Source of the DNA: Nonlabens ulvanivorans
GTDB taxonomy: Bacteria; Bacteroidota; Bacteroidia; Flavobacteriales; Flavobacteriaceae
Direction of reading: 5' to 3'
Length of the DNA: 64,000 bases
NCBI RefSeq assembly: GCF_000755285.1
Contig: NZ_BBMK01000002.1
Coordinates: forward strand, 372,001-436,000
Under the pieces are notes generated by a model, which did no database searches, was not told the origin of the DNA, and was given only the letters and a program-made list of their open reading frames with translations. The translations under genes and the position numbers were made by a program. Positions 1,425-63,976 of this stretch are shown here, piece after piece (the first letter of the stretch is position 1; every line of letters begins with the position of its first letter).

Positions 1425-4400
1425 CTATTCCCATAAGTCTATAGTCACTTCTTTCATCTCAACCACAAAAGGATCCCAGTTTTCTGTAAGCCATGTTTGT
1501 GACTCGATAATTCTTTCATTTGCTAATTCTCTAGCTTGATTAAATAATTGTGTTTCTGTAGCAGTTTGTGGACCTTGACGGCTGCTTATGTATTGATTTG
1601 CTAGTCCTACACGATTCATTACAGTTACTTCAGGATTACGAGTAATTCCCTGACGTTTATCTGGTGTACCAAAGTATTTATTCTGCTCAAGTTCAATACC
1701 TTTTATAATAGAATCGGTTCTTTTTGATTTGATCTTTGTATGCTTTTTTGTCCTTATCCTTCATCAACTTAAGGAAGGTTTGAGCTTTCTTTTTGTTTTC
1801 GGCCAGTTGCTCAGTGATTCCAGATACGGTAATCGATAGGGCTTCTAATCTTTTTTGTGCTTCATATTTAGACTTCATGTCTGCCATGCTCAGCTCATCA
1901 ATCCTAGGATCTTCTTTAATAGTAATACTGGTTTCATTTTTGGTATTTCCATATTCTAATACGGCTCTATAAGTTCCTGGTAAAACTTGTACACCACTAG
2001 GTTCTCTTTTTGAAGTATTGATGTTTCTCGATGGTCGATCAGCTCCTTTTTCTCGCATTCTCCAGCTCCAGGTATGAATACCTTTTTCTTTAGGAGTTTT
2101 ACTAGATAACGTGCGTATCAATCGTTCATCATCATAGATTTTTAAATAGATTGAATCTGATTTTACGGTATCGCTTTTTGCTTTTAATTCTTTGTCAAAG
2201 AAATATTTAAATTTAGCACCACTACCACGATTTTCTCCATGGAACATCGCGTCTGCACCAAATCTACTTCCAGTAGGTTGTTGATATCTAGCAAAGTATG
2301 CAGTAGGTGGCTGGTATAGAGCAATAGGTTGTTGAGGTTGCGTTTCGCGAAAGCAACGAAAGGAGCAAGGTCGTCTAAAACCCAAGCCGCACGACCAAAT
2401 GTACCTATCACTAGATCATTCTCGCGCTCTTGAATAGCAAGGTCTTTAACAGAAACGGTAGGGAAACCATTAGTATATTTTACCCAATCATCACCAGCGT
2501 TAATACTTACATACAGACCATCATCAGTACCTAAAACATCAAGTTATTCTCTTCTGGATGTTCGATGATACATAAGGCATAGCTTTCTACATCATCACTA
2601 TCTACAATTCTAGTCCAACTTTTACCATAGTTCGTGGTACGATATGCATAGGCCTCAAAGTTGAATCTACGATAATCATTTGCCACGAGTAGCGCATGAC
2701 CTTTTTTAGTTTTTGAGGCTTTTATTTGAGTAATCCAGCTGCCTTGTGGTAGACCTTTTAAACCTTTTGAAATATCTTCCCAACTATCACCACCATTTTT
2801 TGTGATGTGTACTCGGCCATCGTCTGATCCTGTGTACAGAACATCACGTTCTACAGCACTAGGTTCTATCACTAGTATAGTTGTATGATTCTCTGCTCCG
2901 GTAGCATCCATTGTTAATCCTCCAGATTCTGATTGTTTTTGCTTCTCAGGATCATTAGTTGTTAAGTCTGGAGAAATCACTTTCCACGTCAGTCCTTTAT
3001 CTGTAGATTTATGAACAAACTGACTACCAAAGTATAAGGTAGCACTATCAAATGGGTCCATATTAATGGCTGCGTTCCAGTTAAAACGTAACTGTACATC
3101 AGGAGCTGGATGTGTAGGTCTAACACTATAGTTATTACCGGTTTGCCAGTCATAACGACTTACAAATCCTTGCTGACTCATAGAATAACCGAATCTACTA
3201 TTATCTGGATCTGGTACAACATCAAATCCATCACCAAAGCTGATCTCTTGCCAGTAACTATTTCTGATGCCTTGCGCACGCCATGAGTATGCCGGTCCAC
3301 GCCAACTACCATTATCTTGCATACCACCATAAACGTTATAAGGCACTTCATTATCTACATTAATATGATAGAATTGTGCCACAGGTAGATTCCCTATAAA
3401 TCGCCATGTCTTACCACGATCACGTGTGATGTTTAAACCACCATCATTTCCATCAATCATAAATTTTCCATTAGTAGGGTGGATGTACCAGGCATGGTGA
3501 TCGGGATGGACACCATTATCTGCATTATAAGCAGGCATCAGTTGTTTAAAGCTTTTACCACCATCTTCAGAGACGTTTATGTATGTGAAAACAGAGTAAA
3601 CACGATTCTCGTTTTGTGAATCCACATATATTTCAGAATAATAGAAAGGTCTATTACCTATGTCACTTTTATCATTAATCTTTTTCCACTTAAAACCACC
3701 ATCTGTAGATTTGTACAATGCATTTTTCTTTGCCTCTACTAGTGCATAAACAACATTAGGCTCGCTAGGAGCAATGGCAACACCTATACGACCTAGTTCA
3801 CCTTTAGGTAATCCATCTTCATCGGTTATTTTTTTCCAGTTTTCTCCACCATCATGTGTCATATACAATCCAGATCCTTCACCACCAGATTTAAAAAACC
3901 ATGGATCACGTTTGTGTTCCCACATGGCAGCAATTAATTTGTTAGGATTAGTAGGGTCCATTACTAGATCTGCCGCACCAGACTTATCGTTGGTGTAAAG
4001 AATTTTTTCCCATGTTTTTCCACCATCAGTGGTTTTAAAAACACCACGTTCTGGATGAATTCCCCATGGTGAACCTATCGCAGCGGCATAAACGACATCT
4101 GGATTAGTAGGGTCAATAATGACTCTATGGATGTTACGGGTTTTTTTAAGTCCCATAGATTTCCATGATTTACCACCATCGAGTGACTTGTATATGCCAT
4201 ATCCACCGTTCAAAGAGTTACGTGGATTTCCCTCGCCAGTTCCTACCCATATCACACTAGGATTAGATTGTTGTATGGCTACAGCACCTATAGAAGCAGT
4301 AACTTCATCTTCAAAAATAGGTTCCCAGGTCACGCCACCGTTATGTGAACTCCATAGTCCTCCACTAGCCGTACCAGCATAAATAATATCTGGATTATCG

Positions 4401-4549
4401 TGTACCACATCTATAGACGTTACACGACCAGACATACCGCCAGGACCTATGTTGCGAGGTTCTAGATTTTTAACTAATTCTAAATCAAGTTTTTGAGAAA
4501 ATGCGAAGCTGGAAATCAAGCAAACGCATAATAGTAGAGTTCTTTTCAT
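1425..4549 (-). CDS. Secreted BNR/VPS10-like beta-propeller protein (three frameshifts)
   Basis: About 1040 aa, starting with a signal peptide (MKRTLLLCVCLISSFAFSQ). The first 670 residues hold many BNR/Asp-box motifs of the form S-x-D-G-G-x-x-W, as in sortilin/VPS10-like propellers often annotated as glycosyl hydrolases; no catalytic residues can be assigned. The frame breaks at 2532-2535 (A-run one short), at 2342-2343 inside a CGCTTTCGCGAAAGCG palindrome that has lost one base, and at 1721-1725 (run of five that needs six). Restoring each base joins LMF-LGTDDG, VAFAKA-QPQQPIAL and QIKKKRTDSII into one reading. The C-terminal third has a coiled-coil-like region (DMKSKYEAQKRLEALSITV) and no T9SS tail. 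Likely exported; substrate unknown. Confidence 0.8.
2342..2355. repeat. Iterated palindrome copy P1 (one base missing), in the BNR gene
   Basis: Reads CGTTTCGCGAAAGC. One C is missing from the GCTTTCGCGAAAGC core, and the gene loses frame exactly here. Restoring it gives AFAKA in frame. Confidence 0.7.
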
Positions 4550-4587
4550 GGTAAAAATTATAGAACTCTAAAGATAAGTCATGAAAC

Positions 4588-4603
4588 CGCTTTCGCGAAA
4601 GCG
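4588..4603. repeat. Iterated palindrome copy P2, upstream of the BNR gene
   Basis: Perfect CGCTTTCGCGAAAGCG in the 78-bp gap between the flavin oxidoreductase stop and the BNR start codon, 39 bp upstream of that start. There is no T-tract, so a terminator role is not evident. Confidence 0.9.
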
Positions 4604-4627
4604 TGTTAACAAAGCATTTGGATTCCG

Positions 4628-5692: not shown

Positions 5693-5700
5693 AAAAGATA

Positions 5701-5736
5701 AAGCAAGGTCTTAATAATTGTATTAAAACCTTGCTT
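5701..5736 (-). terminator. Nested inverted repeat between SDR and flavin oxidoreductase
   Basis: Outer arms AAGCAAGGT (5701-5709) and ACCTTGCTT (5728-5736) enclose inner arms TTAATA (5711-5716) and TATTAA (5721-5726) around a 4-base loop. It lies 18 bp after the SDR stop on the transcribed strand and has no long T-tract. It could be an intercistronic terminator/attenuator or an mRNA-stabilising hairpin. Confidence 0.5.
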
Positions 5737-5754
5737 AAATGTATTTAGAATATT

Positions 5755-6499: not shown

Positions 6500-6515
6500 A
6501 ATAAAAGTTTAATAA

Positions 6516-6537: not shown

Positions 6538-6554
6538 TAGATTAAAAAAAAGGG

Positions 6555-7115: not shown

Positions 7116-7119
7116 GATG

Positions 7120-10623: not shown

Positions 10624-10639
10624 CGCTTTCGCGAAAGCG
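10624..10639. repeat. Iterated palindrome copy P3, divergent intergenic
   Basis: Perfect CGCTTTCGCGAAAGCG in the 217-bp region between the divergent secreted-protein gene and the sigma factor gene. No other clear structure is seen in this gap. Confidence 0.9.
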
Positions 10640-13111: not shown

Positions 13112-13145
13112 CACGCCTTTTAAGATAGTGATGATGGTTTATCTC

Positions 13146-13161
13146 GCTTTCGCAAAAGCGC
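13146..13161. repeat. Iterated palindrome copy P4 (one mismatch), ychF leader
   Basis: CGCTTTCGCAAAAGCG, one substitution from the consensus, between the ychF promoter box and its start codon. Confidence 0.75.
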
Positions 13162-17052: not shown

Positions 17053-17078
17053 AATTTCGCTTTCGCGAAAGCGAAATT
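17053..17078. repeat. Iterated palindrome copy P5, extended to 26 bp
   Basis: The 16-bp core CGCTTTCGCGAAAGCG (17058-17073) is extended by AATTT and AAATT into a perfect 26-bp palindrome, the longest in the window. It is centred in the divergent promoter region of the phosphatase operon and parE, 15 bp before the parE -7-like TATATTTC (17093-17100). Confidence 0.92.
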
Positions 17079-17123
17079 CAAACAGATATACTTATATTTC
17101 GGGAAAGACTGCAGAATTAATTT

Positions 17124-18989
17124 ATGGCTGAAAACACGCAATATACCGAGGATAACATCCGCTCACTAGACTGGAAAGAACACATCAGAATGCGTCCTGG
17201 AATGTATATTGGGAAACTGGGCGATGGATCCAGTGCAGATGATGGAATTTATATCCTTGTAAAAGAAGTCATCGATAACTCTATTGATGAATTTGTAATG
17301 GGATCTGGTAAAACCATTGAGGTTTCTATACAAGGTGAACGCGTTACCGTACGAGATTATGGTCGTGGTATACCGCTAGGTAAAGTCGTGGACGTAGTTT
17401 CTAAAATGAATACTGGTGGTAAGTACGATTCTCGTGCCTTTAAGAAATCAGTAGGTTTGAATGGAGTAGGTACTAAGGCCGTAAATGCGCTGTCGAGCTA
17501 TTTTCGTGTAGAGTCTACCAGAGATGGAAAAAGCGCCAGTGCCGAGTTTTCTCGTGGTGAATTAAATGATCAGGAGATGTTAGAAGAAACATCGCGACGC
17601 AAAGGAACTAAAATGACCTTTGTGCCCGATAGTGAGATCTTTAAAAACTTTAAATACCGTCCAGAATATGTAGCACGTATGTTGAAATACTATGTGTATC
17701 TTAATCCTGGACTTACCATTATGTTTAATGGCGAGAAGTTTTTCTCTGAGAATGGATTAAAAGATTTACTAAGTGAAACCATATTAGATACTGACCGTAT
17801 GTATCCTATTGTTCATCTAGTAGGTGATGATATAGAAGTGGCGCTTACACATAGTAGAACGCAGTACAGTGAAGAATATCACTCATTTGTAAATGGGCAA
17901 AATACTACACAAGGTGGAACGCATCTAGCCGCATTTAGAGAAGCACTGGTAAAAACAATAAGAGAATTTTATGGCAAGAACTATGAGGCAAGTGATATAC
18001 GCAAGTCTATAGTAAGTGCTATTGCTATTAAAGTAATGGAGCCTGTCTTTGAGTCACAGACAAAGACTAAACTAGGTTCTACAGATATGGGTGGCGATCT
18101 ACCGACTGTGCGTACTTTTATAAACGATTTTTTAAAGACTAAACTAGATAATTACCTTCATAAACATAGTGATGTTGCCGAAGCTATACAGCGCAAGATT
18201 ATACAGGCAGAGCGCGAACGTAAAGACCTTTCTGGAATTAGAAAGCTGGCTCGTGATCGTGCTAAAAAATCAAGTCTACACAATAAAAAACTGCGTGACT
18301 GCCGTGTTCATTTAACAGACAGTAAAAAAGAGAATAATCTAGAAAGCACCTTATTTATTACCGAAGGTGATTCTGCAAGTGGATCTATCACAAAATCTCG
18401 TAATGTAAATACACAAGCCGTTTTCTCTTTGCGAGGTAAGCCGTTGAATTCTTATAATATGTCTAAGAAGATTGTGTATGAGAATGAAGAATTTAATCTT
18501 TTACAAGCTGCTCTTAATATAGAAGACAGTATGGAAGATTTGCGTTATAACAAGATCGTAATTGCTACTGATGCCGATGTGGATGGTATGCACATTAGAT
18601 TATTACTTATTACATTCTTTTTACAATTCTTTCCAGAATTAATAAAGAAAGGGCACATTTATATCTTACAAACGCCACTCTTTAGAGTACGTAACAAGAA
18701 AGAAACTAGATATTGTTATACACCTGAAGAGCGCGCTGCAGCACTAGCAGCACTAGGTAAAAATCCAGAAATTACTCGATTTAAAGGATTAGGTGAAATA
18801 AGCCCAGATGAGTTTAAGCATTTTATAGGTGAGGACATGCGTCTAGATCCTTTAATGCTAGATGATAATATGAGTATTGAAGATTTACTACGTTTTTATA
18901 TGGGGGGGAAAAATACACCAGACCGTCAGGAGTTTATCATTGATAATTTGAAGGTAGAACTTGATATAATTGAAGAAGATACTGTATAG
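17124..18989 (+). CDS. parE: DNA topoisomerase IV subunit B
   Basis: 621 aa. GHKL ATPase motifs [20 protein letters not shown] and [14 protein letters not shown]; transducer region [22 protein letters not shown] motifs [12 protein letters not shown] and [14 protein letters not shown]-terminus [15 protein letters not shown]. Length fits flavobacterial ParE and is shorter than a GyrB with insertion. It is followed at once by the A subunit, which supports topoisomerase IV. A run of seven G (18902-18908) encodes [12 protein letters not shown] where ParE usually has a single Gly. Role: ATP-dependent chromosome decatenation. Confidence 0.95.
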
Positions 18990-19050
18990 TAAGTTTTTGC
19001 AAAAGCGTGATTAATCTAACAACCGTTAACCGATAACCGTTAACTAACAA

Positions 19051-21731
19051 ATGAGTGAAGAAAACGAAGAATTAGAGTCCATAAATGATGGTGAAATACT
19101 GGAGCCTACTGAAAGTATAACTCGTATTACGGGAATGTACAAAGAGTGGTTTCTGGATTATGCTAGTTATGTAATTCTAGAACGTGCGGTACCAGCGATA
19201 GAAGATGGCTTTAAACCAGTACAGCGCCGTATCATGCAGTCTATGAAGGATCTGGATGATGGACGTTATAATAAGGTAGCAAATATTGTAGGTCACACGA
19301 TGCAGTATCATCCACATGGAGATGCTAGTATAAGTGATGCTATGGTGCAAATTGGGCAAAAAGATATGCTCATCGATATGCAGGGAAACTGGGGGAAATA
19401 TCTTTACAGGTGATCCAGCAGCTGCATCTCGTTATATAGAAGCAAGATTATCAAAGTTTGCGCTAGAAATTCTTTTTAATCCTAAAATTACAGAGTGGCA
19501 ATCTAGTTATGATGGCCGTCGTAAAGAACCCGTTAACCTACCGGTAAAATTCCCACTTCTACTCGCACAAGGAGCTGAAGGGATCGCAGTAGGACTAAGT
19601 ACTAAGGTTTTACCACACAACTTTATTGAATTAATAGATGCTTCTATAAAGCACTTACAGGGCAAACGATTTACCATATATCCAGATTTCCCAACTGGTG
19701 GAGAAATAGACATTTCTAACTATAATGACGGTTTGCGTGGTGGAAAAGTGCGTGTACGTGCCAAAATGCATGCGCCAGACAAGAACACGATTATTATTAC
19801 TGAGATTCCGTATTCTACAAATACGAGCTCATTGATTGATTCGATTTTGAAAGCCAATGAAAAAGGTAAAATCAAAATTAAAAAGATAGAAGACAACACT
19901 GCTGCAGATGTTGAAATAATGATTCATCTTCATGCTGGTATTTCACCAGATAAGACCATGGATGCTTTATTTGCATTCACAAATTGTGAGTCGAGTATTT
20001 CTCCACTAGGTTGTGTTATTGAAGATAACAAACCACTATTTGTTGGTGTAACAGAGATGTTGCGTCGTAGTGCAGATCATACAGTGGACTTATTAAAACA
20101 AGAATTAGAAATACAACTCGATGAAGTAGAAGAGCAGTGGCACTTTGCATCTCTAGAACGTATTTTTATTGAGAACAGAATCTATCGCGATATTGAAGAA
20201 GAGGAAACCTGGGATGGTGTTATCGCTGCGATAGATAAAGGCTTAAAACCACACATAGGTCACTTAAAAAGAGCTATTACTGAAGATGATATCACAAGAT
20301 TAACAGAGATCCGTATCAAACGTATTTCAAAATTTGATATTGATAAAGCGCAGCAAAAAATAGATGCTCTTGAAGAACGTATTGCACAACTCAAACATCA
20401 TTTAGCAAATCTTATTGAGTATGCTATAGATTACTTTACTTCTCTTAAAAAGAATTATGGAGCAGGAAGAGAACGCCAGACAGAAATCAAAACTTTTGAT
20501 GACATCGTGGCTACTAAAGTAGTCATGAGAAATACTAAGCTGTATGTAAATAGAGAAGAAGGCTTTATTGGAACTGCCTTAAAAAGGATGAATACGTTAC
20601 CGATTGTGCAGACATTGATGATATTATAGTATTTACTAAAGATGGAACGATGATGGTCACTAAGGTTGATGCAAAAACCTTTATTGGTAAAGACATTATC
20701 CATGTTGCTGTATTTAAGAAAAAAGATAAACGTACCATTTATAATGTGATTTATCGAGATGGTAAAACAGGACCTAGTTATGTAAAGAGATTTGCCGTAA
20801 CGAGTATGACCAGAGATAAAGCCTATCCTATGGGCAAGGCAGATAAAGGTTCTCAAATACATTACTTCAGTGCAAACCCTAATGGAGAGGCAGAGTCGTA
20901 AGCATCAACTTACGCCAGCAAGGAAGTATTAAGAAAGTGAAATGGGATTTAGATTTCTCTGAAATTCTAATTAAAGGTAGAGCTTCTAGAGGTAATCAGG
21001 TGACTAAATATAATATCAAGAAAGTAGAGCTCAAAGAAGAAGGTGTAAGTACATTGAAACCACGTAAAATTTGGTTTGATGACACGGTACAACGTTTAAA
21101 TGTTGATGGAAGAGGAGAGCTTTTAGGTGAATTCAGAGGAGAAGATAGATTGTTAATTATCAATCAAAAAGGATTAGTAAAAACTATCATTCCTGAGGTG
21201 ACCGCACGTTTTGATGATGACATGATTGTTTTAGAAAAATGGTCTCCAAAAAAGCCTATTAGTGCTATTTATTTTCATGGTGAAAAAGAATTGTTTTACG
21301 TTAAGAGATTCTTAGTTGAAAATGAGGAAAGAGAAGAAACATTCTTACCAGAAGTAGATGGATCTTATCTTGAAGTTGTTTCTACAGACTATAAACCAGT
21401 TGCCGAGCTTGTTTTTAACAAACCTAGAGGTAAGGAACAACCACCTAACGAGCCTGTTGATGTAGATGAGTTTATCGCGGTAAAAGGAATAGGAGCACAA
21501 GGTAACCAGCTTACTAAGAGTAAAGTAAAACAAATCAATTGGCTAGATCCATTACCGTTTGAAGAGCCAGAAACCACGCCTGCTGTTGAGGTAGAGGTTA
21601 ATGATGAAACTATAGTATCTAGTACTGAATCTTCAGATGGTAATGCAGCAGCAAAACCTAATAAAGAAACTAAAGATGATAATGCGCCAGATCCGGATAT
21701 CGATGATAGTGGACAGGCTAGCCTCTTTTAA
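19051..21731 (+). CDS. parC: DNA topoisomerase IV subunit A (three frameshifts)
   Basis: About 893 aa. Breakage-reunion domain with DGFKPVQRRIMQSM, HPHGDASISDAMV and the catalytic Tyr in AAASRYIEARLS; C-terminal pinwheel repeats (KVRVRAKMH; LIKGRASRGNQVTKYNIKKV; FIAVKGIGAQGNQLTK) and an acidic tail. Three frame breaks: 19391-19395 (five G where four give MQGNWGNIFTGD), 20581-20585 (five A where six give KKDEYVTDCADIDDIIVF), and 20895 (G missing, giving AEVVSINLRQQGSIKKV). All three are single-base changes, which in an essential gene points to consensus errors. Sixty-one bases separate it from parE, and a degenerate half-palindrome (about 18992-19005) lies in the gap. Confidence 0.93.
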
Positions 21732-21750
21732 AAGTTAAATATTTATATAA

Positions 21751-21780
21751 TCCTGCTTTCGCGAAAGCAGGATTTTTATT
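21751..21780 (+). terminator. Palindrome copy P6 forming a terminator after parC
   Basis: A 22-bp perfect palindrome (21751-21772) containing the core GCTTTCGCGAAAGC, followed directly by TTTTTATTTTTAT. Flanking TCC/GGA extends the core stem. This is a copy of the window-wide repeat that also has terminator form. Confidence 0.8.
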
Positions 21781-22388: not shown

Positions 22389-25247
22389 ATGAAATTTTTT
22401 ATCAGTTTACTTTTTTTTAGTCTGTCTACCGTTCTTGTTGCTCAAGTCGGAATTAATACAGATAATCCATTTGCAACATTAGATATAAATACAGATACAC
22501 CGGTATTACCTAGTACGGGAATACTTATTCCACGAGTAGATGATTTTGCCACTACTAATCCAGACATAAACCAGCAATCTTTACTTGTATATCTTACTAC
22601 GGCAGTAAATCGTAACATTACTGGTACAGGAGTTGAAACTTATGAATCTGGTTTTTATTACTGGGATAATGCCTCTACAAACTGGATATCAATTACAGCC
22701 GGTGGAACCGGATGGAATATAGAAGGTAATGATAACATTGACGATACCCAGCATTTTATGGGAACCACCACAGCACAAGATGTAGTATTTAAGGTCAACG
22801 ATATTCAAAGGTTTAGAATGACTGAATCTGGTCAACTAGAAGTTTTTACCGATGCAAAATCTATATTTATAGGTGAAGATGCCGGTAATAGTTATATACC
22901 TACTGATGGAAGTGGAAGGAAAGGAGAACAAAATGTGTTTATAGGTTATCAATCTGGAACTCTTAATACAATTGGTCGTGATAACATGGCGGTAGGTACT
23001 TTGAGTCTATCTAAAAATATAGATGGTAATTTTAATACAGCGATAGGTGATGAGGCTTTGGAGAATTCAATATCGTCTTCTAATAATACTGCGATAGGTA
23101 ATGATGCCATGCGTTATGCAACTAATAGTGCTGATAACACTGCAATAGGAGCTGGGTCTCTTGCAAATGCACGCAGTTCAAATCATGTAGCTGTTGGATA
23201 TCAAGCAGGTAATTCTGTTAGTAACGGTGCAGGTAATACTATTATAGGTGCAAATGCAGATGTGACTGCTGGGAATTTATCAAATTCTGTTGCAGTAGGT
23301 AATCAATCCCAAATAGGTAATAATACAGCTACAGCGATAGGATACCGATCAACTGCGGCTGGTCAAAATTCTATTGCATTAGGACAGTCTAGTTCTGTAA
23401 CTGCTCAAAATGCTATAGTTATAGGTAGCCTGAGTACTTCAAATGGTTCTAACTCTATCGCTATAGGAGAGTCCGCTAGTGCTAGTAATAATGACGCCAT
23501 TGCGATGGGAAGTGATGCCACTGTTAATGGTGTGAATACAATCGCGATAGGTCATAACGCTAGTGCTGCAAACTCTAGTTCAATAGCAATTGGTTCATCA
23601 ACAGCAGCACCACAGCAATATGCTATATCTATAGGAGCAAATGCTACTACAGCATCTACTCGTGCTATTGCTGTCGGATTCAACGCTGAGGCTACAGGTG
23701 ATAATGCAGCATCTTTTGGTTATCTAGCTATCTCTACAGGAACTAATGCCTTAGCTTTAGGTACAACTTCTAAAGCGACAGGATCTGATGTCATTGCAAT
23801 AGGTAATAGCGCTACCAATACTTCAAGCAACTCTGTTGCCATAGGTAGTAGCGTTAACAATACAGGTGGCAATAGTGTAACGATCGGTGATACAGCCATC
23901 AACACAGCCGCAAACTCTGTTGTAATAGGATCTAATACAAATGCGACAGGACAAAACTCTGTAAATGTAGGTAGAAATGCAGACACATCTGGATCTAATG
24001 CCATCGCCGTAGGAGCAAATACTGATGCTACACTTACAGCAATCGCTATAGGTAGCGATGCTCAAGCGCTAGGAGAAAGTTCTACAGTAATAGGAGATGA
24101 CGCAAAAGCTAATAATCTTAATGCTGTTTCTATAGGTAATGAATCTGATGCAAACGGTAATCAATCTATTTCTCTAGGTCATAGATCTAGCACTACTGCT
24201 ACTAATAGTATAGCTATAGGAAACTCATCATCCGGAGAGAATATTTCTGCGGTAGCTATAGGAAATATGGCACGTGCTTCAAAACAAAATTCTATAGCGA
24301 TAGGAGAAGATACAGATGCTTTAGGAGAAAATGCTCTTGCTATAGGAACAAAGGCTAATGCAAATGGCGCTCGATCTCTAGCAATAGGCCAGGACGCTTT
24401 AAGTTCTTCAGATAGTGCAACATCATTAGGATACAATTCAGGTGCAAGTGGAGCTTTAAGTACAGCGATAGGAGCTGAAGCTAAGGCAAGTGCAAACAAT
24501 TCATCTAGTTTAGGAAATAAAGCAAATGCCTCTGGTACCGAATCACTAGCACTAGGTTTTGAAGCCAAAGCATCACAAAATACGGCAATAGCTATAGGTA
24601 AGAAATCAACATCGAGTGGTGTAGATGCTATCACGATAGGTAACGCTGCATCTGTAGTAGGAACTCGCAATATTGCTATAGGTTCTCAATCTGGAGCTAG
24701 CAATAGTGCTGCGTCTAACTCAGTTGCTATTGGTACTGGTACTGTAGTTAAGCATAATAGATCCATTGCATTAGGAGATGGAGCAATCACTACAAAAGAT
24801 AACCAATTAATATTAGGAAACATTTCTGAATTAGAAGCTGTTTCTGCAAATATTAAAACTACGGGTACCATTACAGCAAACAATTTTGTCTCTTCAACTG
24901 GTGTTGCCGGTTATGCAGATTATGTATTTGATATCTACTATGAGGGCAAATCAGAATTGAGTAAAACTTATAAATTTCCAACTATTGATGAGGCAGAAGC
25001 TTTTGTTAGGGCTAATGGACATTTAATAGGAGTGAAGTCTATTGAGGATATTCAAGCACAAGGAATGACGGTAAATGTTACCGAGACGGCACTTAAGAAT
25101 TTAGAAAAATTAGAAGAACAATTTCTTTACATAACAGAATTACATTCCAAATTAAAAGCTCAAGAAATAAGAATCCAAAAATTAGAACAATCACTGGAGC
25201 GTATTGATGCATTAGAAAAAAAACTAGATGCTTTAAGTAACGATTAG
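22389..25247 (+). CDS. Giant YadA-head-like repeat surface protein
   Basis: 952 aa. Signal peptide (FISLLFFSLSTVLVAQ), then the flavobacterial module VGINTDNPFATLDINTD. From about residue 150 to 800 runs a long series of roughly 14-residue left-handed beta-roll repeats of the form x-A-I-G-x-x-A-x-A-x-G-x-x-S, as in YadA/Hia trimeric autotransporter heads. The C-terminus is a short globular segment (FPTIDEAEAFVRANGHLIGV) and a heptad coiled coil (KLKAQEIRIQKLEQSLERID). It lacks the membrane-spanning YadA beta-barrel anchor and a T9SS tail. It resembles flavobacterial tail-fibre/adhesin proteins ending in a trimerising stalk. Likely surface adhesin; export route unknown. Confidence 0.85.
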   Translation: MKFFISLLFFSLSTVLVAQVGINTDNPFATLDINTDTPVLPSTGILIPRVDDFATTNPDINQQSLLVYLTTAVNRNITGTGVETYESGFYYWDNASTNWISITAGGTGWNIEGNDNIDDTQHFMGTTTAQDVVFKVNDIQRFRMTESGQLEVFTDAKSIFIGEDAGNSYIPTDGSGRKGEQNVFIGYQSGTLNTIGRDNMAVGTLSLSKNIDGNFNTAIGDEALENSISSSNNTAIGNDAMRYATNSADNTAIGAGSLANARSSNHVAVGYQAGNSVSNGAGNTIIGANADVTAGNLSNSVAVGNQSQIGNNTATAIGYRSTAAGQNSIALGQSSSVTAQNAIVIGSLSTSNGSNSIAIGESASASNNDAIAMGSDATVNGVNTIAIGHNASAANSSSIAIGSSTAAPQQYAISIGANATTASTRAIAVGFNAEATGDNAASFGYLAISTGTNALALGTTSKATGSDVIAIGNSATNTSSNSVAIGSSVNNTGGNSVTIGDTAINTAANSVVIGSNTNATGQNSVNVGRNADTSGSNAIAVGANTDATLTAIAIGSDAQALGESSTVIGDDAKANNLNAVSIGNESDANGNQSISLGHRSSTTATNSIAIGNSSSGENISAVAIGNMARASKQNSIAIGEDTDALGENALAIGTKANANGARSLAIGQDALSSSDSATSLGYNSGASGALSTAIGAEAKASANNSSSLGNKANASGTESLALGFEAKASQNTAIAIGKKSTSSGVDAITIGNAASVVGTRNIAIGSQSGASNSAASNSVAIGTGTVVKHNRSIALGDGAITTKDNQLILGNISELEAVSANIKTTGTITANNFVSSTGVAGYADYVFDIYYEGKSELSKTYKFPTIDEAEAFVRANGHLIGVKSIEDIQAQGMTVNVTETALKNLEKLEEQFLYITELHSKLKAQEIRIQKLEQSLERIDALEKKLDALSND

Positions 25248-25259: not shown

Positions 25260-25275
25260 CGCTTTCGCGAAAGCG
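25260..25275. repeat. Iterated palindrome copy P7, after the surface-protein gene
   Basis: Perfect CGCTTTCGCGAAAGCG, 12 bp past the stop codon and just before a separate, conventional terminator. Confidence 0.9.
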
Positions 25276-29491: not shown

Positions 29492-30010
29492 ATGACTCGT
29501 AAAGAACTAAAATCAGAAGAGTACAACAGCTATTACGATCATTATCTAAATTTAGTGCCAGAGGCAGCAACCATTGATACGATTCTTAAAACTAGTTTAG
29601 AGGACACTTTAGATTTTGTAAAGGCCATAGATAAGCCTTTTGATTCGACTTATGGAGAAGGAAAGTGGACCATAGGTGAAGTATTGATGCATAATATAGA
29701 CACAGAACGAGTATTTGCTTATCGAGCTCTTCGTTTTATGAGAGGCGATTTAACGCCTTTACCAGGATTTGATCAAGATATTTTTGCACGAGATTATAAA
29801 AATTACGCTTTCGCGAAAGCGGATTTATTAAATTCATTTCAAACAACAAGAAATGCAACAATTGATTTATTTAAATCCATTACAGCAGATCAGCTTATGA
29901 CTAAAGGAATGGCAAGTGATAGTGCTATGAGTGTAAGAGTGATCCCTTTTTTAATAGCTGGACATAATAAACACCATGAAAATGTAATAATGGAACGTTA
30001 TTTAAGTTAA
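29492..30010 (+). CDS. DinB family protein with in-frame palindrome
   Basis: 172 aa, a four-helix-bundle DinB/YfiT-like protein. Metal-binding His residues are likely in EVLMHNIDTERVFAYRALRF and in the C-terminal AGHNKHHENVIMERYL. Function is uncertain: the family includes thiol-dependent transferases and damage-inducible proteins. The iterated palindrome at 29806-29821 codes NYAFAKADLLNSF in the middle of the protein. Confidence 0.85.
   Translation: MTRKELKSEEYNSYYDHYLNLVPEAATIDTILKTSLEDTLDFVKAIDKPFDSTYGEGKWTIGEVLMHNIDTERVFAYRALRFMRGDLTPLPGFDQDIFARDYKNYAFAKADLLNSFQTTRNATIDLFKSITADQLMTKGMASDSAMSVRVIPFLIAGHNKHHENVIMERYLS
29806..29821. repeat. Iterated palindrome copy P8, inside the DinB-like gene
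   Basis: Perfect CGCTTTCGCGAAAGCG, read in frame as AFAKA. Confidence 0.92.
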
Positions 30011-35664: not shown

Positions 35665-35680
35665 CGCTTTCGCGAAAGCG
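35665..35680. repeat. Iterated palindrome copy P9, divergent intergenic
   Basis: Perfect CGCTTTCGCGAAAGCG between the start at 35623 and the aldehyde dehydrogenase start at 35782; flanking A/T extends it to an 18-bp palindrome. Confidence 0.9.
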
Positions 35681-44072: not shown

Positions 44073-45135
44073 TTATCCATTCACGAGCAACGATACGACA
44101 TAGCTATAGGTTTTCATTCCATCTGGTTGATTATTTGCTTTTAAATACTGATTATAAGTGGCTTGTGACACTTGCTCAATAACATTGTCATCATATGGCG
44201 CCCAGAAGTCTCTCAGTTCTTGATAGTTTTTTAAAATACCTGGCCTTAGATAAGCTTTTATTTCTTCAAAAGCTTCAGGATCTTTAGTGTATAAATCGTT
44301 CAATAAATACTTCAACCCAAAAATGCTTGCACTATACTGGAAATGTAAATCTTCGTGATTCAGACCAGCTTGAATGGCAACATAGTTAGCCTCATTTTCT
44401 TTTGCAAATCCCAATTGATGAGACATCTCGTGCAGAATTAACACAGGTGTTTTATAGCAATTGATCCATGCATTAGTTTGAGCTTCTCCGGTTATAGGAT
44501 TTAAATAACCGCTATATCCCATATGGGTTAACGGCATGGTGAGCAAGGATTTTTTAATGCTATTTGGCCTTAATTTTTGTTTCAATTGCGGTTGTGGTAA
44601 CTTTTCAAATCCGCTGGGTGCGATTTTGAATAGTTCTTTTTGTGATCGATTGAAAGCTACCGGTAAACTATCGACAGGTTGTAAGGATTCATGTAACTCG
44701 TTAGAAAAGTCAGCATATATGGCAACTGTTTTCTTAAGTTGATCAACGGTATATTCTCGTTCAATGTTTAGCGTCACATTCAGCGGTTGTCGATAATAAT
44801 TAAATCCCCCATAAAACTTGAAAAGTGAATAAGATGATGTTTAATGAAAATAGGAGTTGCGTATAACGCTTCCGCGAAAGCGTAATTAAATCCTTCTTTG
44901 ATATCCATAACCATCTTAATATCATTACAACTCCTGCGATGTATATCAAGTCACCAAAGGATATTGGAATCCAACCTAATCCGATGCGCATGGCTTTAGA
45001 AATGTATGGATATATCCCATTACTGTAATACTTTTCAATAAATGACGGGAAGTTTCTAAGATTATAATAGGTCAGTATTTGTAGAGCCAGAAGGCCTATC
45101 GCTATTACTACATGACGTTTTCTAGTTCCGAGCAT
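44073..45135 (-). CDS. DUF3810 domain-containing membrane zinc-peptidase-like protein (frameshift)
   Basis: About 354 aa. Three N-terminal membrane helices (VVIAIGLLALQILTYYNL; FGDLIYIAGVVMILRWLWI; TQLLFSLNIILFTFQVLWG) precede a soluble domain with HExxH in ILILHEMSHQLGFAKENEAN, typical of DUF3810. The run of five C at 44806-44810 should be four; removing one joins FQVLWG to FNYYRQPLNVTLNIEREY. The second half alone shows a false start at MTLNIE. Palindrome P11 codes ITLSRKRYTQLL. Function not established; zinc peptidase fold suspected. Confidence 0.82.
44867..44882. repeat. Iterated palindrome copy P11 (one mismatch), inside the DUF3810 gene
   Basis: CGCTTCCGCGAAAGCG, in frame as LSRKR. Confidence 0.8.
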
Positions 45136-46937: not shown

Positions 46938-49318
46938 ATGAAAAGAATTCTATTTATAAGTACTTTAGTTTTGTTTTATTCCGCTTTCGCGAAAGCGCAA
47001 TCACAATCATCCAAACAAGAATTTAAAGGCTACTATAACTTTACTTACTCAGAAGATAAAGGTAACATCCTTCTAGAAGTCAAAGATTTAGATAAGGAAT
47101 TTCTATATGTTTATTCATTAAGTACTGGTCTAGGATCTAATGATATAGGTCTCGATAGAGGTAAGTTGGGTGATGGAGTTGTCGTGAAATGGGTAAAAAG
47201 TGGTCATAAATTACTACTCATGCAGCCCAACCTTAAATACCGTGCGAGTAGTGATAATGAAAAGGAACGCGCTTCTATCAATCAAGCATTTGCACAGTCG
47301 GTTTTATACGGTTTTGAAATAAAATCACAGAAAGATGGTGTTTACACGATTGATATAACATCGTTTTTAATGCAGGATACTTTTGGTGTAGCGGCAACAC
47401 TCAAACGAAACAAAGAAGGTACTTATAAAGTAGATAAATCTCGTAGTGTCCTGTGGATGGAAAACACAAAATCCTTCCCTGAAAACAGTGAATTTGAAGC
47501 CATGCTCACTTTTACAGGAACACCGACTGGTCGCAATATAAGAAGCGTCGCACCAGATGCAAAGTCCATTACTGTTATACAACATCACAGTTTTGTAAAA
47601 TTACCAGATGCTGGGTATGAGCCTCGAGTTTTTCATCCACGTAGTGGTTCTTTTTTATGTGAGTTATATGGATTATAGTACACCAGTTTATGAACCTATT
47701 CAAAAACGTTTTATAACCAGACATCGATTAGAGAAAAAAAATCCTGACGCTGCTTTAAGTGAACCAGTAGAGCCTATTATTTATTATCTAGATCCTGGTA
47801 CACCAGAACCAGTGCGTAGTGCCTTGTTAGATGGAGCTGGCTGGTGGAATACCGCTTTTGAAAGTGCAGGATATAAAAATGCATTCCAAGTAAAAATGTT
47901 ACCCGATGGCGCAGATCCTATGGATTTGAGATATAATGTCATTCAATGGGTACACCGCAGCACACGTGCTGGAGTTATGGCGCGAGTATTACGGATCCAC
48001 GAACTGGCGAAATCATCAAAGGTCATGTAAGTCTAGGAAGTTTGCGAATAAGACAAGATTTTATGATCGCTCAAGGTTTACTTAAAGAACCTTTTAAAGA
48101 TAGCGATGAGAACCACAATGAGATGATGGAACTAGCACTAGCACGTATCAGGCAATTAGGAGCTCATGAGGTAGGACACACGCTAGGCTTTGCACATAAT
48201 TTTGCTGCCAGTACCAATGATAGAGCTAGTGTGATGGATTATCCACATCCTAGATTAGAATTAGTTGAAGGAGAAATACGTTTTGAAGATGCTTATGATG
48301 CAGGAATGGGCGCATGGATGATTTAACGGTTCAATATTCTTATGGAAACCCAGATAAGACTCAATCTGAAGAGCAATATTTAAAAGCTATTATTGATAAA
48401 GCTACTGCTCAAAATTTAAGATTTATATCAGACAGCGATTCTAGAGCTGCTGGTGGCGCACATGCTCAGGCACATTTATGGGATAATGGAAGTCAACCTG
48501 GAGCAGAACTAGAGCGTATGCTAGAAATACGTCAAGTAGCGATGAATCAATTTAGTATTGATAACATAAGAACTGATGAACCTTTAAGCGTTCTAGAAGA
48601 TGTTTTTGTACCTGTTTATTATGGCCATCGTTATCAGGTAGAAGCAACCGCAAAATGGATAGGCGGAATGGAATACAACTATGCTACAAAAGGTGATCCT
48701 GTAGAAATGAGATATCTTTCAAAACAAGAACAAATGAGTGCTTTAAAAGCTCTTTTAAAAACTCTTGAGGTAGAACAATTAATGATACCGACTGATTTAC
48801 TAGAGTTGTTCCCACCACGAGCTTATGGTTACTCTCGCGGCAGAGAAAGTTTTAAGAGTGAAGTAGGCGTGGCATTTGATCCATTGCATGCTGCTGCCAG
48901 TAGTGCAGACATGACATTGAGTTTCTTAATGCATCCACAGCGTGTGAATCGATTGGTTCAAATTAAAGCTATAGAGCAAGATAATCTAGGACTAAAAGAG
49001 TTATTAGAAAACATTACTGAAGTGGTTTTTGAAAATGAAACCAATTCTAACTATCAAAATGCCATTGAGCAACGAGTTCAAGAACGACTCGTCATGCAAT
49101 TGATAAATGCTCATGCTAACTCACGAACTAATCTAGCAGCTAAAGGTCTAATCAGAAATCAATTGTTAACCATCGACAAGAAACTTAAAAGACTTAAAAA
49201 TGCCACGGCTCTAGAATTACGTTCTCAAATCGAGCAATATTTTAAAGATCCAACTCAGTTTAAAGTAGTGAATTTACCTAGTTTGCCAGATGGAAGTCCT
49301 ATAGGTTGTGGTGAGTAG
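46938..49318 (+). CDS. Secreted zinc metalloprotease, DUF5117 type (three frameshifts)
   Basis: About 794 aa. Signal peptide ending YSAFAKAQ, whose last residues are encoded by palindrome P12. Active site in [19 protein letters not shown] (HExxHxxGxxH), followed by the Met-turn [12 protein letters not shown]. The DUF5117-like N-terminus contains [20 protein letters not shown]. Frame breaks: 47651-47656 (one T too many; [16 protein letters not shown]), 47968 (G missing; [18 protein letters not shown]-type reading) and 48316-48317 (G missing; [17 protein letters not shown]). The restored protein is continuous through [17 protein letters not shown]. Likely exported; substrate unknown. Confidence 0.85.
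46982..46997. repeat. Iterated palindrome copy P12, in the metalloprotease signal peptide
   Basis: Perfect CGCTTTCGCGAAAGCG, in frame as AFAKA. It supplies the end of the signal peptide. Confidence 0.92.
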
Positions 49319-49320: not shown

Positions 49321-50913
49321 TTAATTTGTTTTGTTAACCCTACTCAAATCTAACATATTCACCGCATTCGTTTCTAAACCAGAAACTTTCTTGCTTATAA
49401 ATCGTACACTTTCATCATAATAAAGAGGAACGATAGGAGCTTCACTAATAATGATAGAATCCATTTTTATATAGAGTTCTTTACGATCTGCAGCGTTAGG
49501 TAAGGTGAGTGCTTGCTCGTAGAGCTGGTCGTAAGTGTCGTTTTTAAAGTGCGTGTAGTTAGGTCCGTTAGGAGAGAAGTTTTTAGAATATCCTAGCGAT
49601 AAATAATTTTCGGCATCGGGATAATCGGCAATCCAGCTGGAGCGGAAGATATCTAGGTTTCCAGCGCTACGGGCTTGGCGTAATGTAGATGGTGGCATGA
49701 CTTCTACACTCGTTTTTACACCTATTTTTTCTAGTTCTTTCTGGATGAATTCACATAAGTCAAGGTAGTTAGCACCAGTGGTGATGGTGATCTCAGGATT
49801 TGTATCTCCAGTTTCGGTAATGTATTGTTGTACTAATCGTTGTGCCTCATTGATGTCATATTCATAACCTTTTACAACTCCACCAGCTGGTAACCCAGCG
49901 GGAATGATTCCGCTAGTTGCAGGAATACCTATGTTGTTACGCAGGTATTTGATCATTTTTTTTCTATCAAATCCTTTATTAATCGCCTGTCTAAGTAATT
50001 TGCTTTGTATTTCTGGTGTGTCGCTGTCTAGGTATAAACCTAGATATTCTGTATTCAAAAATGGAGCTTTCACCAAATTAGTTGTGGAAAGGTATTTAGC
50101 TTTTAAGTCTCCAGTTGTGGTCAGCAATTCATCTTTATAACTAGGATCTATAGCATTTATAAAATCTAGATTTCCTTGAGCATATTCTAGGAATTCACTT
50201 TGTTTATCGCTTTTAAAAGTGATGGCGACTGCTTCTAGGTAAGGTAATGCCTTACCAGTGCTGTCTTTTTCGTGGTAGTTATTATTCTTACGCAGTACCA
50301 TTTTTACATTTTCTTCCCATCGTTTCAAATAGAAAGGTCCAGTGCCCACAGGATTTGAACGGTATTCATTTCCATATTTTTCTACAGCTTCTGGTAGTAC
50401 CACGCTGCAAAACTTCATGGTAAGTAATCCTAAGAATGCTGGAAATGGCTTTTTTAAAGTGATCCTTAATTGGTTCTCATCAATCGCGTTTATCGCAGCA
50501 ACATTAGACATAACCCAAGCACCAGGAGATGCTACCACAGGATCTGTTAATCGTTCTAGAGAATATTTGAAGTCTAGTGCGGTTACTTTTCTCGCTTTCG
50601 CGAAAGCGTCAAAGTCTTGAAAATAAATATCCTTTCTAAGTTGAAAAGTATAAACTAGTCCATCTTCACTAATGTACCATTCACTAGCAAGGTCGGGAAC
50701 TACCTCGAGGTTTTTATCCAGTTTTACTAAACCATTATAAATTAAATTGCAAGCCCATATATTGCGTTGATCTTTTGCAAATGCAGGATCTAGTGTAGTA
50801 ATGTTTGCATGTTCATTATATCTGAAAACTGTTGTTTCATCAATGGTAATACTAGTATCACCGCAATTGACGAATAGGAGCGACAGTAATAAAAAACAGC
50901 AATTTTTAATCAT
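49321..50913 (-). CDS. ABC transporter substrate-binding lipoprotein (SBP_bac_5, peptide type)
   Basis: 530 aa. Lipobox LLLSLLFVNC; then the family signature YNGLVKLDKNLEVVPDLASE, WYISEDGLVYTFQLRKDIYF, and the late FRSSWIADYPDAENYLSLGY. Family 5 solute-binding proteins bind peptides or nickel. No permease or ATPase genes lie alongside, so it is an orphan. Palindrome P13 encodes FDAFAKARKVTALDFKYS in the N-terminal lobe, a position where homologues I recall have a loop of similar length. Confidence 0.9.
   Translation of the reverse strand: MIKNCCFLLLSLLFVNCGDTSITIDETTVFRYNEHANITTLDPAFAKDQRNIWACNLIYNGLVKLDKNLEVVPDLASEWYISEDGLVYTFQLRKDIYFQDFDAFAKARKVTALDFKYSLERLTDPVVASPGAWVMSNVAAINAIDENQLRITLKKPFPAFLGLLTMKFCSVVLPEAVEKYGNEYRSNPVGTGPFYLKRWEENVKMVLRKNNNYHEKDSTGKALPYLEAVAITFKSDKQSEFLEYAQGNLDFINAIDPSYKDELLTTTGDLKAKYLSTTNLVKAPFLNTEYLGLYLDSDTPEIQSKLLRQAINKGFDRKKMIKYLRNNIGIPATSGIIPAGLPAGGVVKGYEYDINEAQRLVQQYITETGDTNPEITITTGANYLDLCEFIQKELEKIGVKTSVEVMPPSTLRQARSAGNLDIFRSSWIADYPDAENYLSLGYSKNFSPNGPNYTHFKNDTYDQLYEQALTLPNAADRKELYIKMDSIIISEAPIVPLYYDESVRFISKKVSGLETNAVNMLDLSRVNKTN
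50593..50608. repeat. Iterated palindrome copy P13, inside the peptide-binding gene
   Basis: Perfect CGCTTTCGCGAAAGCG, in frame as AFAKA on the minus-strand gene. Confidence 0.92.
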
Positions 50914-53272: not shown

Positions 53273-53288
53273 CGCTTTCGCGGAAGCG
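53273..53288. repeat. Iterated palindrome copy P14 (one mismatch), between mtaB and padR
   Basis: CGCTTTCGCGGAAGCG, with A/T flanks, after the mtaB stop; no T-tract. Confidence 0.8.
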
Positions 53289-56652: not shown

Positions 56653-56657
56653 CGCAT

Positions 56658-57722
56658 ATGGCAGGAAATACATTTGGTACTTTATTTAAACTTACTACTT
56701 ATGGTGAGTCACACGGTATCGCAATAGGAGGAATTATAGACGGCTGTCCAGCTGGTTTAACACTAGATATGGAAGCTATTCAACGAGATCTAGATAGACG
56801 TAAACCAGGACAAAGTAAAATCGTTACTCAGCGCAAAGAATCTGATACCGTACAGTTTATGTCTGGTATCTTTGAAGGTGTAACCACCGGTACACCTATA
56901 GGTTTTCAAATAGTCAATGAGAATCAAAAATCTAAAGATTATTCACATATTAAAGATACGTACAGGCCTAGTCATGCAGATAAAGTGTATGATGATAAAT
57001 ATGGTGTGCGCGATTATCGTGGTGGTGGACGCAGTAGTGCTCGAGAAACGGCAAGTAGAGTAGTGGCTGGTGCCATTGCAAAACAACTATTGAGCTCCTT
57101 TAAAATTAATGCTTTTACCAGTAGTGTTGGTGATTTATTTATTGATAAACCTTACCAAGATCTTGACTTTAATGAGATTGAAAATAATGCAGTAAGATGT
57201 CCTGATTCCGCTTTCGCGAAAGCGTTTGAAGAAAAAATAATGCAAGTAAGAAAGGCAGGAGATACCATAGGAGGAACCATTACTTGTGTGATTCAAAACG
57301 TGCCTAGCGGTATAGGAGAACCTGTGTTTGACAAACTCCATGCAGATCTCGCTAAAGCGATGTTATCTATCAATGCGGTAAAAGGATTTGAATACGGCAG
57401 TGGATTTTGTGGTGCTAAAATGAAAGGAAGTGATCATAATGATTTATATAACGAAGATGGTACGACTAAGACTAATTTAAGTGGTGGAATACAAGGTGGA
57501 ATCTCTAACGGGATGGATATTTATTTTAGAGTTGCCTTTAAACCAGTTGCCACTTTAATTCAAAATCAAGAAACAATTAACAGTGCTGGCGAGAAAGTGA
57601 TGATGCAAGGAAAAGGTAGACATGACCCTTGTGTCGTACCGCGTGCTGTACCTATTGTTGAGGCTATGGCCGCACTGGTTATGGCAGACCATTTTTTAAG
57701 AGCAAGAACTACAAGATTATAA
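56658..57722 (+). CDS. aroC: Chorismate synthase
   Basis: 354 aa. Signature motifs [52 protein letters not shown] followed by SSARET, and [17 protein letters not shown]. Converts EPSP to chorismate with reduced FMN as cofactor, last step of the shikimate pathway. Palindrome P15 (57209-57224) encodes [12 protein letters not shown] between CPD and the [11 protein letters not shown] region. No operon partner; own promoter, nearly leaderless. Confidence 0.96.
57209..57224. repeat. Iterated palindrome copy P15, inside aroC
   Basis: Perfect CGCTTTCGCGAAAGCG, in frame as AFAKA. Confidence 0.93.
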
Positions 57723-59083: not shown

Positions 59084-59186
59084 CGTTATGTTAATAAAAA
59101 TTTAGGTATTTCACCGATTTGTTAAAGCCTAAATAACAATGAAGTGAAACTAAATAGGTACTTTTAAAATACTAAAGCACCTATCT

Positions 59187-61112: not shown

Positions 61113-61116
61113 TATT

Positions 61117-61994: not shown

Positions 61995-62113
61995 GTACTA
62001 GGTTTTTTACCTTCTAGATACTGCTGTTAAAAAAGCCTTATTATTCCATTACGACTCTGGTTACTATCAGATTTTCTTCTTAGTTTTAAACACTACCAAC
62101 TAAAAACGAAAAC

Positions 62114-63097: not shown

Positions 63098-63136
63098 CTT
63101 CAGAGAGAAGAGATAAACTAAAAAGCTCTATACGCA

Positions 63137-63976
63137 ATGCTTAAATTAAGTATCAGTGAAATGCTCTTGAAAATCGAGCGAGAAGAACGATTTCATGCTG
63201 TGGCTAGTGATTATTCCTTTTCCATTAAAATAGATAAGTACGTACCTTTTGTATGTGCTGCAGTACATGATGGACATCACTTTCAAAAACAGTTGTGGGA
63301 CGATTGTTTACATACAGAGCATGACCGCTGGTATGAGGAAGATCCTTGTACTGGCGAGATGATTTCTGGGTTGCCTATTACGCTTATTGCTCATGATTCT
63401 AGGTTTGAATATGATTTAAATAGAGATCCATTAGAAGCCATCTATGAGACAGCTTGGGGGGGCAAAGAGTTATGGAGAAAACCGCTTTCGCGAAAGCGAA
63501 AAGATCAAGCTATACTAAGACATAATAATTTTTATAGAGTGGTACTGTCTTTGATAGTAAAACTAGAAGAAATGTTTGGGTCTACCGTTTTTTATGATGT
63601 ACACTCCTATAACTGGAAAAGATGGGATCGTAAAGTGCCTGTGTTTAACATAGGAGCTAAAAATATAGATCAAGACCGGTTTGTACATGATATACAGCAA
63701 TGGAAGGAAATATTAGATAAAATAGAATTACCCATTGAGCAAGAGGTTAGTTGTGGTATCAATGATGTTTTTCAAGGCAACGGATATTTTTTAAAATACG
63801 TTACGTCTAACTCATTGAATACACTGGTCCTAGCTACAGAGATATCTAAAGTATATTGTGATGAAGAAACAGGAGTGATATATCCAGATGTGGTTCACGC
63901 AGTAAAAGATCAATTTAAGTATTATATACAAGCGCACGCGCATAGATTTTATGAAAGACATGAACGTATCGTTTAA
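63137..63976 (+). CDS. N-formylglutamate amidohydrolase family protein
   Basis: 279 aa. Family motifs FVCAAVHDGHHF (metal/catalytic His), RFEYDLNRDPLEAIYETAWG, FYDVHSYNWKR, and EISKVYCDEETGVIYPDV near the C-terminus. A seven-G run (63456-63462) encodes ETAWGGKELWR, and palindrome P16 (63483-63498) codes KPLSRKRKDQ immediately after. Cleaves N-formylglutamate or related amides. Grouping with a GshB homologue is a flavobacterial theme I recall together with a QEGLA-motif gene. Confidence 0.85.
   Translation: MLKLSISEMLLKIEREERFHAVASDYSFSIKIDKYVPFVCAAVHDGHHFQKQLWDDCLHTEHDRWYEEDPCTGEMISGLPITLIAHDSRFEYDLNRDPLEAIYETAWGGKELWRKPLSRKRKDQAILRHNNFYRVVLSLIVKLEEMFGSTVFYDVHSYNWKRWDRKVPVFNIGAKNIDQDRFVHDIQQWKEILDKIELPIEQEVSCGINDVFQGNGYFLKYVTSNSLNTLVLATEISKVYCDEETGVIYPDVVHAVKDQFKYYIQAHAHRFYERHERIV
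63483..63498. repeat. Iterated palindrome copy P16, inside the N-formylglutamate amidohydrolase gene
   Basis: Perfect CGCTTTCGCGAAAGCG, in frame as LSRKR. Confidence 0.92.

Follow-up and report, generated by a model that had tools for sequence, protein, structure and literature searches.

An evenly spaced 16-bp palindrome in Nonlabens, a candidate site for a chromosome-maintenance protein

The palindrome in the window and in the genome

We analysed 64,000 nucleotides of Nonlabens ulvanivorans DNA (contig NZ_BBMK01000002.1, positions 372,001–436,000 of the forward strand; this whole stretch is called the window, and window positions are counted from its first letter), in which a short palindrome recurs. 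The window contains 16 sites, 12 of them with the exact 14-mer GCTTTCGCGAAAGC, and a recount reproduced the number, the positions and the twelve exact copies given in an earlier note on this DNA. The other four had been described as carrying one change, which holds for the sites at 13146, 44868 and 53274, whereas the site at 2341 has two mismatches. On mechanical calls of open reading frames (ORFs; ≥100 amino acids), seven sites lie between ORFs and nine within them, close to the even division reported before. Shuffling the window gave 0.11 expected sites (maximum one in 100 shuffles), and the whole genome (3.09 Mb in 25 contigs; the G000 assembly is ~87% complete) contains 487 exact copies of GCTTTCGCGAAAGC (~157 per Mb) and none of the reversed control, a copy number beyond chance, as had been claimed. 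Cores with at most one mismatch number 613, and exact copies of the 16-mer CGCTTTCGCGAAAGCG number 372. A contiguous 436 kb of this genome (contig C24, 1–436000, window included) holds 67 exact cores, and none of 200 control palindromes made by permuting the half-site letters is present there exactly; matches to the 14-mer alone with three mismatches are weak proof, given that the permuted controls average 8.4 and reach 96. Short, perfect, over-represented and dispersed in and between genes, the element has the properties of a highly iterated palindrome, which supports the likeness to the cyanobacterial element HIP1 drawn earlier. The observation is real and stronger than first claimed, and regular spacing, flanking arms and genus-wide conservation had been overlooked.

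Between ORFs, the perfect 16-mer occurs at 4588–4603, between divergent ORFs at 10624–10639, directly upstream of a gyrB/parE-type ORF (17124–18989) at 17058–17073, and 12 bp past the stop of ORF 22389–25247 at 25260–25275; the site at 13145–13160 has one mismatch and that at 21754–21769 keeps the 14-mer with the outer C and G altered. A further one-mismatch site (53273–53288) directly follows mtaB, and 15 of 18 Nonlabens relatives have a site within ~0.5 kb downstream of mtaB. Perfect 16-mers within ORFs lie at 29806–29821 (ORF 29492–30010), 35665–35680 (a short ORF, doubtful as a gene), 46982–46997 (ORF 46938–47678), 50593–50608 (a length-variable segment of a gene for an ABC substrate-binding protein), 57209–57224 (ORF 56658–57722) and 63483–63498 (ORF 63137–63976). 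The site at 39812–39827 (ORF 39690–40376) matches the 14-mer exactly and the 16-mer with one mismatch, that at 44867–44882 (ORF 44800–45135) has one mismatch, and the degenerate site at 2340–2355 (GCGTTTCGCGAAAGCA) has two mismatches to the 14-mer. The sites at 44867 and 46982 are orthologous in the genomes G011, G016 and G002, and seven more distant relatives also have a site near the place of 46982 (extrapolated coordinates). The site at 50593 is kept in G011, G002, G016, G019, G020 and G022 and in G003 and G007 a 21-bp hairpin interrupts it; that at 57209 uses the same codons (for AFAKA) in nine of the 11 homologues listed, and that at 63483 is also present in G002 and G001. A candidate weak site with four mismatches (18992–19007), in the gap from 17058 to 21754, is a statistical call only and may be chance, as some four-mismatch weak sites are. 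Between two palindromes, ORF 22389–25247 (952 amino acids) has YadA/EmaA-type trimeric autotransporter repeats, with scores below curated cut-offs.

Across 81 sites with at most one core mismatch in the 436 kb, the outer C is present in 84% and the outer G in 93%, making the 16-mer CGCTTTCGCGAAAGCG the unit. It is flanked by symmetric arms of ~30 bp, the 5′ arm poor in C and the 3′ arm poor in G, with T preferred at several steps; their GC skew falls from 0.44 (1–15 bp) to 0.26 (16–30 bp) and does not exceed 0.06 past 30 bp. The arms are G/T-rich on the 5′ side of both strands, with an A/C-rich 3′ arm. No covariation between the arms was found and they are alike on both sides whatever the direction of transcription, which argues against an extended RNA hairpin. 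An intrinsic terminator (hairpin and T run) was likewise rejected, given the A/C-rich 3′ arm and the location of most sites within genes. Outside full sites, the counts are 81 for GAAAGCG (58 expected) and 0–6 for longer half-sites (0.8–4.3 expected), and inner CG-rich sub-motifs show no excess; with half-sites near expectation, the whole dyad appears to be needed, which suggests that the simplest reader would be a dimer on double-stranded DNA. The same core recurs in two genomes of other genera, with clear arms in G250 and weak ones in G234 (46% GC).

Spacing, conservation and place of the sites

Spacing was analysed for the 94 sites with at most three mismatches in the 16-mer within the 436 kb, against 5,000 random placements that kept the split between coding and intergenic DNA. 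Only one of the 93 gaps is shorter than 1 kb (18.3 expected; simulated minimum six), and the coefficient of variation (CV) of the gaps is 0.54 against 0.99 expected (simulated minimum 0.70). The sites exclude each other, with a mean interval of ~4 kb and a distribution more even than chance. In G001 the CV is 0.52 against 0.86 (20-kb samples), below all 2,000 simulations, and in G003 it is 0.69 against 0.98 (P = 0.0008; exact sites only). Weak and indel-bearing variants avoid strong sites as well—18% of 22 lie within 1.5 kb of one, against 56% of random places (P ~0.001), while 274 controls with six mismatches are placed as random—and weak, mutated copies therefore sit in the gaps between strong sites. 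Twenty samples along the complete chromosome of G001 contain 0–7 sites per 20 kb (dispersion index 0.55) with no visible trend (the origin is unmapped), an even coverage that argues against an origin- or terminus-bound system. The largest gap in the 436 kb is site-free over 17 kb, and six of the eight proteins searched there have glycosyltransferase, pyruvyltransferase or acyltransferase domains; this polysaccharide cluster is likely to be acquired DNA. At the other extreme, the his/trp region of G003 has an unusually dense group of five sites in 4.7 kb (L400:2159–6878), in and beside histidine biosynthesis genes.

Sites are retained far more often than control sequences. Blocks aligned to the window in three relatives (~90% identity) keep 15 of 16 sites, against 52–66% of control 16-mers, and those in seven relatives (~72% identity) keep 12 of 23, against 4–6% of controls; in G005 (76% identity), outside the latter count, the single comparable site is not kept. 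These counts cover 11 of the 18 Nonlabens relatives fetched, the other seven lacking synteny there. Of 99 coding sites from G234 and G250, 19 could be mapped to the fetched Nonlabens genes; two of these, both G234 sites, share their codon position with a Nonlabens site. By our own estimate, independent placement would give far fewer such matches.

Several coding sites have homologues that differ in the site without any gap. At window site 57209 the alleles read AFAKA with the site and AMAKE or DFAKA, and at 63483 they read LSRKR and LSEEE, so at these places the site was gained or lost by substitution. Of 142 queries, 37 were coding sites with a usable homologue (several representing the same locus); 19 of these show no gap in any comparison, 26 have at least one gapless comparison, and no constant insert length is seen. 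The suggestion in the earlier note that the palindrome is mobile is not supported at several coding loci; at other places the site lies at an indel, as at window site 50593, and insertion is possible there.

Some palindromes are themselves interrupted. A 21-bp hairpin (CCTGCCTGCCGGTCAGGCAGG or close to it) splits the palindrome after CGCTTTCGCG, in frame and adding ~7 residues, in L316 of G003 (~9165 and ~15515), in L319 of G007 (~9499 and ~15726), in L386 (~284) and once in G250; another split copy, in L319 at ~11282, is degenerate, and two copies in G001 have a different insert. Other Nonlabens have a simple site at the place orthologous to 50593, as does G020 at another split place, and the palindrome therefore looks like an insertion target of a small hairpin resembling repetitive extragenic palindromic (REP) elements. 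For the G003/G007 clade one place was compared, and there parsimony on a one-gene tree makes the simple site the ancestral state.

Relative to genes, 26 of the 94 sites are intergenic in the N. ulvanivorans sequence, where 10.7% of bases are, and the intergenic sites in the 436 kb lie close to stop codons, with 16 of 19 distances to a flanking stop not exceeding 24 bp; the tendency is weaker in G001 (10 of 31 stop distances). G234 shows no intergenic excess (six of 77 sites; 8.5% of bases). Coding sites favour the frame that encodes AFAKA (30 of 63 in N. ulvanivorans, 35 of 53 in G001 and 40 of 71 in G234). Compared with site-less homologues, there is a gap at the site in 60% of 401 comparisons (many from one locus), against 1.8% of controls, and permissive protein segments rich in indels are a frequent location of coding sites. 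At L320:13652, compared with N. ulvanivorans, the residues FAFAKA come with the site in one of the two Nonlabens but not in the other; a site can therefore differ through silent changes alone.

Distribution across genomes and mobile DNA

All 23 Nonlabens genomes searched have a full set (288–857 exact copies). In a sample of the family (249 genomes, three of them Nonlabens), the only other full sets are those of G234 (536 copies) and G250 (1,017 with at most one mismatch), nine genomes have 9–29 sites and the rest fewer; in a sample of the order (395 genomes, G234 not among them), only two Nonlabens and G250 are full. The window's mtaB protein shares 89–90% identity with those of Nonlabens xiamenensis and N. 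tegetincola and no more than 83% with the rest of the best 80 matches. In a one-gene mtaB tree, G234 branches at a distance from Nonlabens, and G250 falls close to the root, whose position is uncertain. Double gain, transfer, or ancient presence followed by loss are all compatible with this patchy distribution. Two genomes have small numbers: G188 has 29 sites and G086 has 25, counted with up to one mismatch. In both, the exact sites are spread over several contigs and may be what remains of a once complete set now in decay.

The 16 exact copies of G120 are all confined to 78 kb of one contig (G120:C3:32331–110016, L286–L290). This island is largely matched in G095 (C6 and C98), a member of another genus, at ~60–100% protein identity (mostly >85%); the two chromosomes otherwise lack most sites, and parts of the island are common to G117, G145, G033 and G188. 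A 933-bp pair of sites recurs in G120, G117 and G145. The shared island and the recurring pair indicate that sites travel on islands.

Other mobile DNA is divided. The Nonlabens phages P12024S and P12024L (71 kb together), close relatives without an annotated integrase that we assume to be lytic, lack sites even at three mismatches; none of 80 contigs with a related terminase (831 kb; hosts mostly not identified) has a core within one mismatch, and the plasmid of G007 (29,179 bp, with Rep3 and Mob genes) contains no site within four. Searches of phage and plasmid collections with consensus 40- and 42-mers gave only partial, chance-like matches. By contrast, 11 viral records (12 loci), picked because sites are present from at least 120 pattern-matching stretches, have 2–6 sites each; one encodes an integrase and another Mu-type portal, head and protease proteins. 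When relatives of these were chosen by protein alone, all four loci of the integrase group (the query's own contig included) had sites, as did five of six Mu-like loci; three of those five are protein-identical to the query, and the remaining locus has 34% identity. Among three Mu-like relatives at 66–69% identity, four of seven pairwise site comparisons (not independent) showed retention, against 8–12%; one phage group is 89–94% identical where aligned, and its shared sites say little.

Candidate roles of the palindrome

We tentatively favour, at somewhat less than an even chance, the reading that the palindrome is the site of a putative dimeric protein for chromosome maintenance or organisation, and a chromosome-organising role, among the roles proposed at the outset, stays with the best candidates. 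The 16-bp dyad and its ~30-bp arms would be recognised by a dimeric (or symmetric higher-order) protein binding double-stranded DNA, which would act on the chromosome itself in nucleoid architecture, segregation or maintenance. Each site would serve ~2–3 kb in both directions. Another one closer than ~1.5 kb would add nothing and a long site-free stretch would be mildly costly, and selection would thereby give rise to a quasi-regular ~4-kb lattice. The dimeric reader, its reach and the benefit to the chromosome are what we infer from the counts, symmetry, arms, spacing, conservation and sampled coverage described above and from the absence of sites in the plasmid and the two phages. A protein that acts on the chromosome in place would be in keeping with a saturating benefit, with the symmetry of the site and its even coverage, and with its presence in some integrating phages. 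Perhaps, though this is doubtful, the hundreds of palindromes ~4 kb apart form a selected anchor lattice for a dimeric organiser, like boundary or anchor elements, which chromosome-dwelling phages would have adopted and plasmids and lytic phages would not.

Several observations weigh against this role. In G234 the arms are weak and the gap CV (0.76 against 0.84) falls inside the simulated range, although the share of gaps below 1.5 kb (12%) equals the lowest simulated value; a 17-kb site-free stretch is tolerated in N. ulvanivorans. The absence of sites from the plasmid, phages and polysaccharide cluster may merely reflect recent DNA, as a drive by DNA uptake would give, and such a drive would likewise place coding sites in permissive segments. 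Known bacterial chromosome-organising sites are few or regional, and most known architectural sites are fewer than these and regional. No reader protein was found in the ParB family or in the neighbourhood of the dense cluster of G003, where a reader gene might have lain beside the sites and the genes are those of the his/trp region. ParB parS/Noc sites resemble the Nonlabens palindrome in being 14–16 bp long and palindromic with a proposed chromosome-wide role, but the Nonlabens copies are in the hundreds and evenly spread, and canonical ParB alone accompanies them in five of six carriers. Canonical ParB (TIGR00180) is present in all 14 genomes searched (six carriers and eight others) with a conserved helix-turn-helix, and a second ParB-type match occurs in one carrier (G019) and in two others (G074 and G076); with no carrier-specific ParB and a helix-turn-helix like that of non-carriers, we rejected this identity.

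The strongest rival, which we consider unlikely but well short of negligible, is a DNA-uptake (self-recognition) sequence, in which biased uptake and recombination would leave about one site per incoming fragment and hence even spacing. For hundreds of long, near-perfect oligonucleotides spread evenly in and between genes, the main precedent is that of the DNA uptake sequences and uptake signal sequences (DUS/USS) known from Neisseriaceae and Pasteurellaceae. The Nonlabens sites share their number, near-perfection, even spacing and conservation; they also favour permissive places and are missing from part of the DNA that may be newly acquired, though present in some phages and islands. Uptake drive would also explain the preference for permissive places and the absences, which are seen here in the intergenic excess (26 of 94 sites), in the indel-rich segments that hold coding sites and in the site-free plasmid, P12024 phages and polysaccharide cluster. 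According to three papers, uptake sequences are evenly spread with a spacing like that of conversion tracts, lie in permissive places and are absent from recently acquired genes (PMC2397512, PMC7811141, PMC1939737). Within the Bacteroidota, DNA self-preference has been reported for Riemerella columbina, placed by its authors in Flavobacteriaceae, with no responsible motif established (PMC7965970). Against uptake, the full dyad and symmetric arms point to a dimeric double-strand binder, sites are present on some phages and islands, the intergenic excess is missing in G234, and the literature search returned nothing on competence in Nonlabens. The Nonlabens site differs from DUS/USS in being a perfect dyad with symmetric arms, present on some phages and islands. 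Known uptake sequences are, to our knowledge, non-palindromic.

We regard as rather improbable a site for recombination, repair or replication restart, that is, a two-way Chi-like mark whose G/T-rich 5′ arms would aid strand exchange from either side and whose spacing would set the amount of DNA lost. The density is near that of E. coli Chi (about one per 4–5 kb chromosome-wide), the 5′ arms are G/T-rich on both strands, and the sampled chromosome is covered whereas one plasmid and two related phages are site-free. However, known Chi sites are short and asymmetric, whereas the Nonlabens site is a 16-bp palindrome with little or no excess of half-sites alone, and with half-sites near expectation a short, asymmetric one-strand motif was rejected.

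A mobile element, either a self-inserting mini-palindrome or a REP-like hairpin, seems very unlikely. Dispersed palindromes are typical of REP elements, bacterial interspersed mosaic elements (BIMEs) and miniature inverted-repeat transposable elements (MITEs), some Nonlabens sites hold hairpin inserts (some in G003 and G007 are longer elements with an inner hairpin), islands carry sites between genera, and gaps occur at the site in 60% of the 401 comparisons. The Nonlabens sites, however, are often coding, strongly self-avoiding and even, and were born by substitution at several loci, as shown by the gapless alleles at 57209 and 63483 and the 19 of 37 queries that are wholly ungapped; no constant insert length was seen, and the simple site is the older at the G003/G007 place compared. 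Scarcely plausible, in our estimate, are packaging sites of a gene-transfer agent or prophage-borne capsid, set about one packaged fragment apart: the ~4-kb spacing and the presence in phage-like contigs are all that speak for them, known gene-transfer agents package DNA without fixed sites, and none turned up here, where no search was aimed at one.

The comparison with HIP1 (GCGATCGC) extends to saturating spacing and patchiness by lineage, but the Nonlabens site is 16 bp long with arms rather than 8 bp, has ~157 exact 14-mers per Mb rather than 1,000–2,000, differs in sequence (CGCTTTCGCGAAAGCG, not GCGATCGC) and phylum, and has no methylase in common among three families. These families (C5, PF00145; N4/N6 beta-class, PF01555; Dam-type, PF02086) were searched in 22 carriers (20 of the 23 Nonlabens, G234 and G250) and are missing in nine, ten and 17 of them, respectively, with no match to any in G006, G007 and G009. 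For HIP1, a methylase that recognises part of the motif accompanies the element in every carrier genome (PMC4390886), a rule that the three carriers lacking all three families break for these families. That the palindrome arose as in HIP1, through the joint action of a DNA methyltransferase and mismatch repair (a methylated-site ratchet), is barely credible here, and the methylase target proposed in the earlier note is not supported by these three families: an iterated palindrome with saturating spacing is what the published HIP1 model describes (PMC4390886), but inner CG-rich sub-motifs are not in excess and 16 bp is long for a methylase.

A search of the literature (licence-limited text) found no description of the palindrome; the 14-mer appeared in none of the text, the 10-bp core appeared under unrelated titles, and nothing linked HIP elements to flavobacteria. 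If the favoured role or its uptake rival is true, an architectural lattice or a Bacteroidota uptake sequence would be new as far as this search shows, the latter against a report of self-preference without an established motif (PMC7965970). A 16-bp dyad repeated hundreds of times with strong mutual exclusion, in a whole genus and two other genera, would be a rare case in which a site's range of action can be read from its spacing. The highly iterated sequences known so far are mostly short, or linked to DNA uptake or methylation. Among 78 other named loci (≤21 kb) there was no comparable iterated palindrome, one locus having two palindromes twice each. In Salegentibacter salarius (L188), an unrelated 13-mer, GAACTTGTTTCAG, occurs in four copies within 21 kb.

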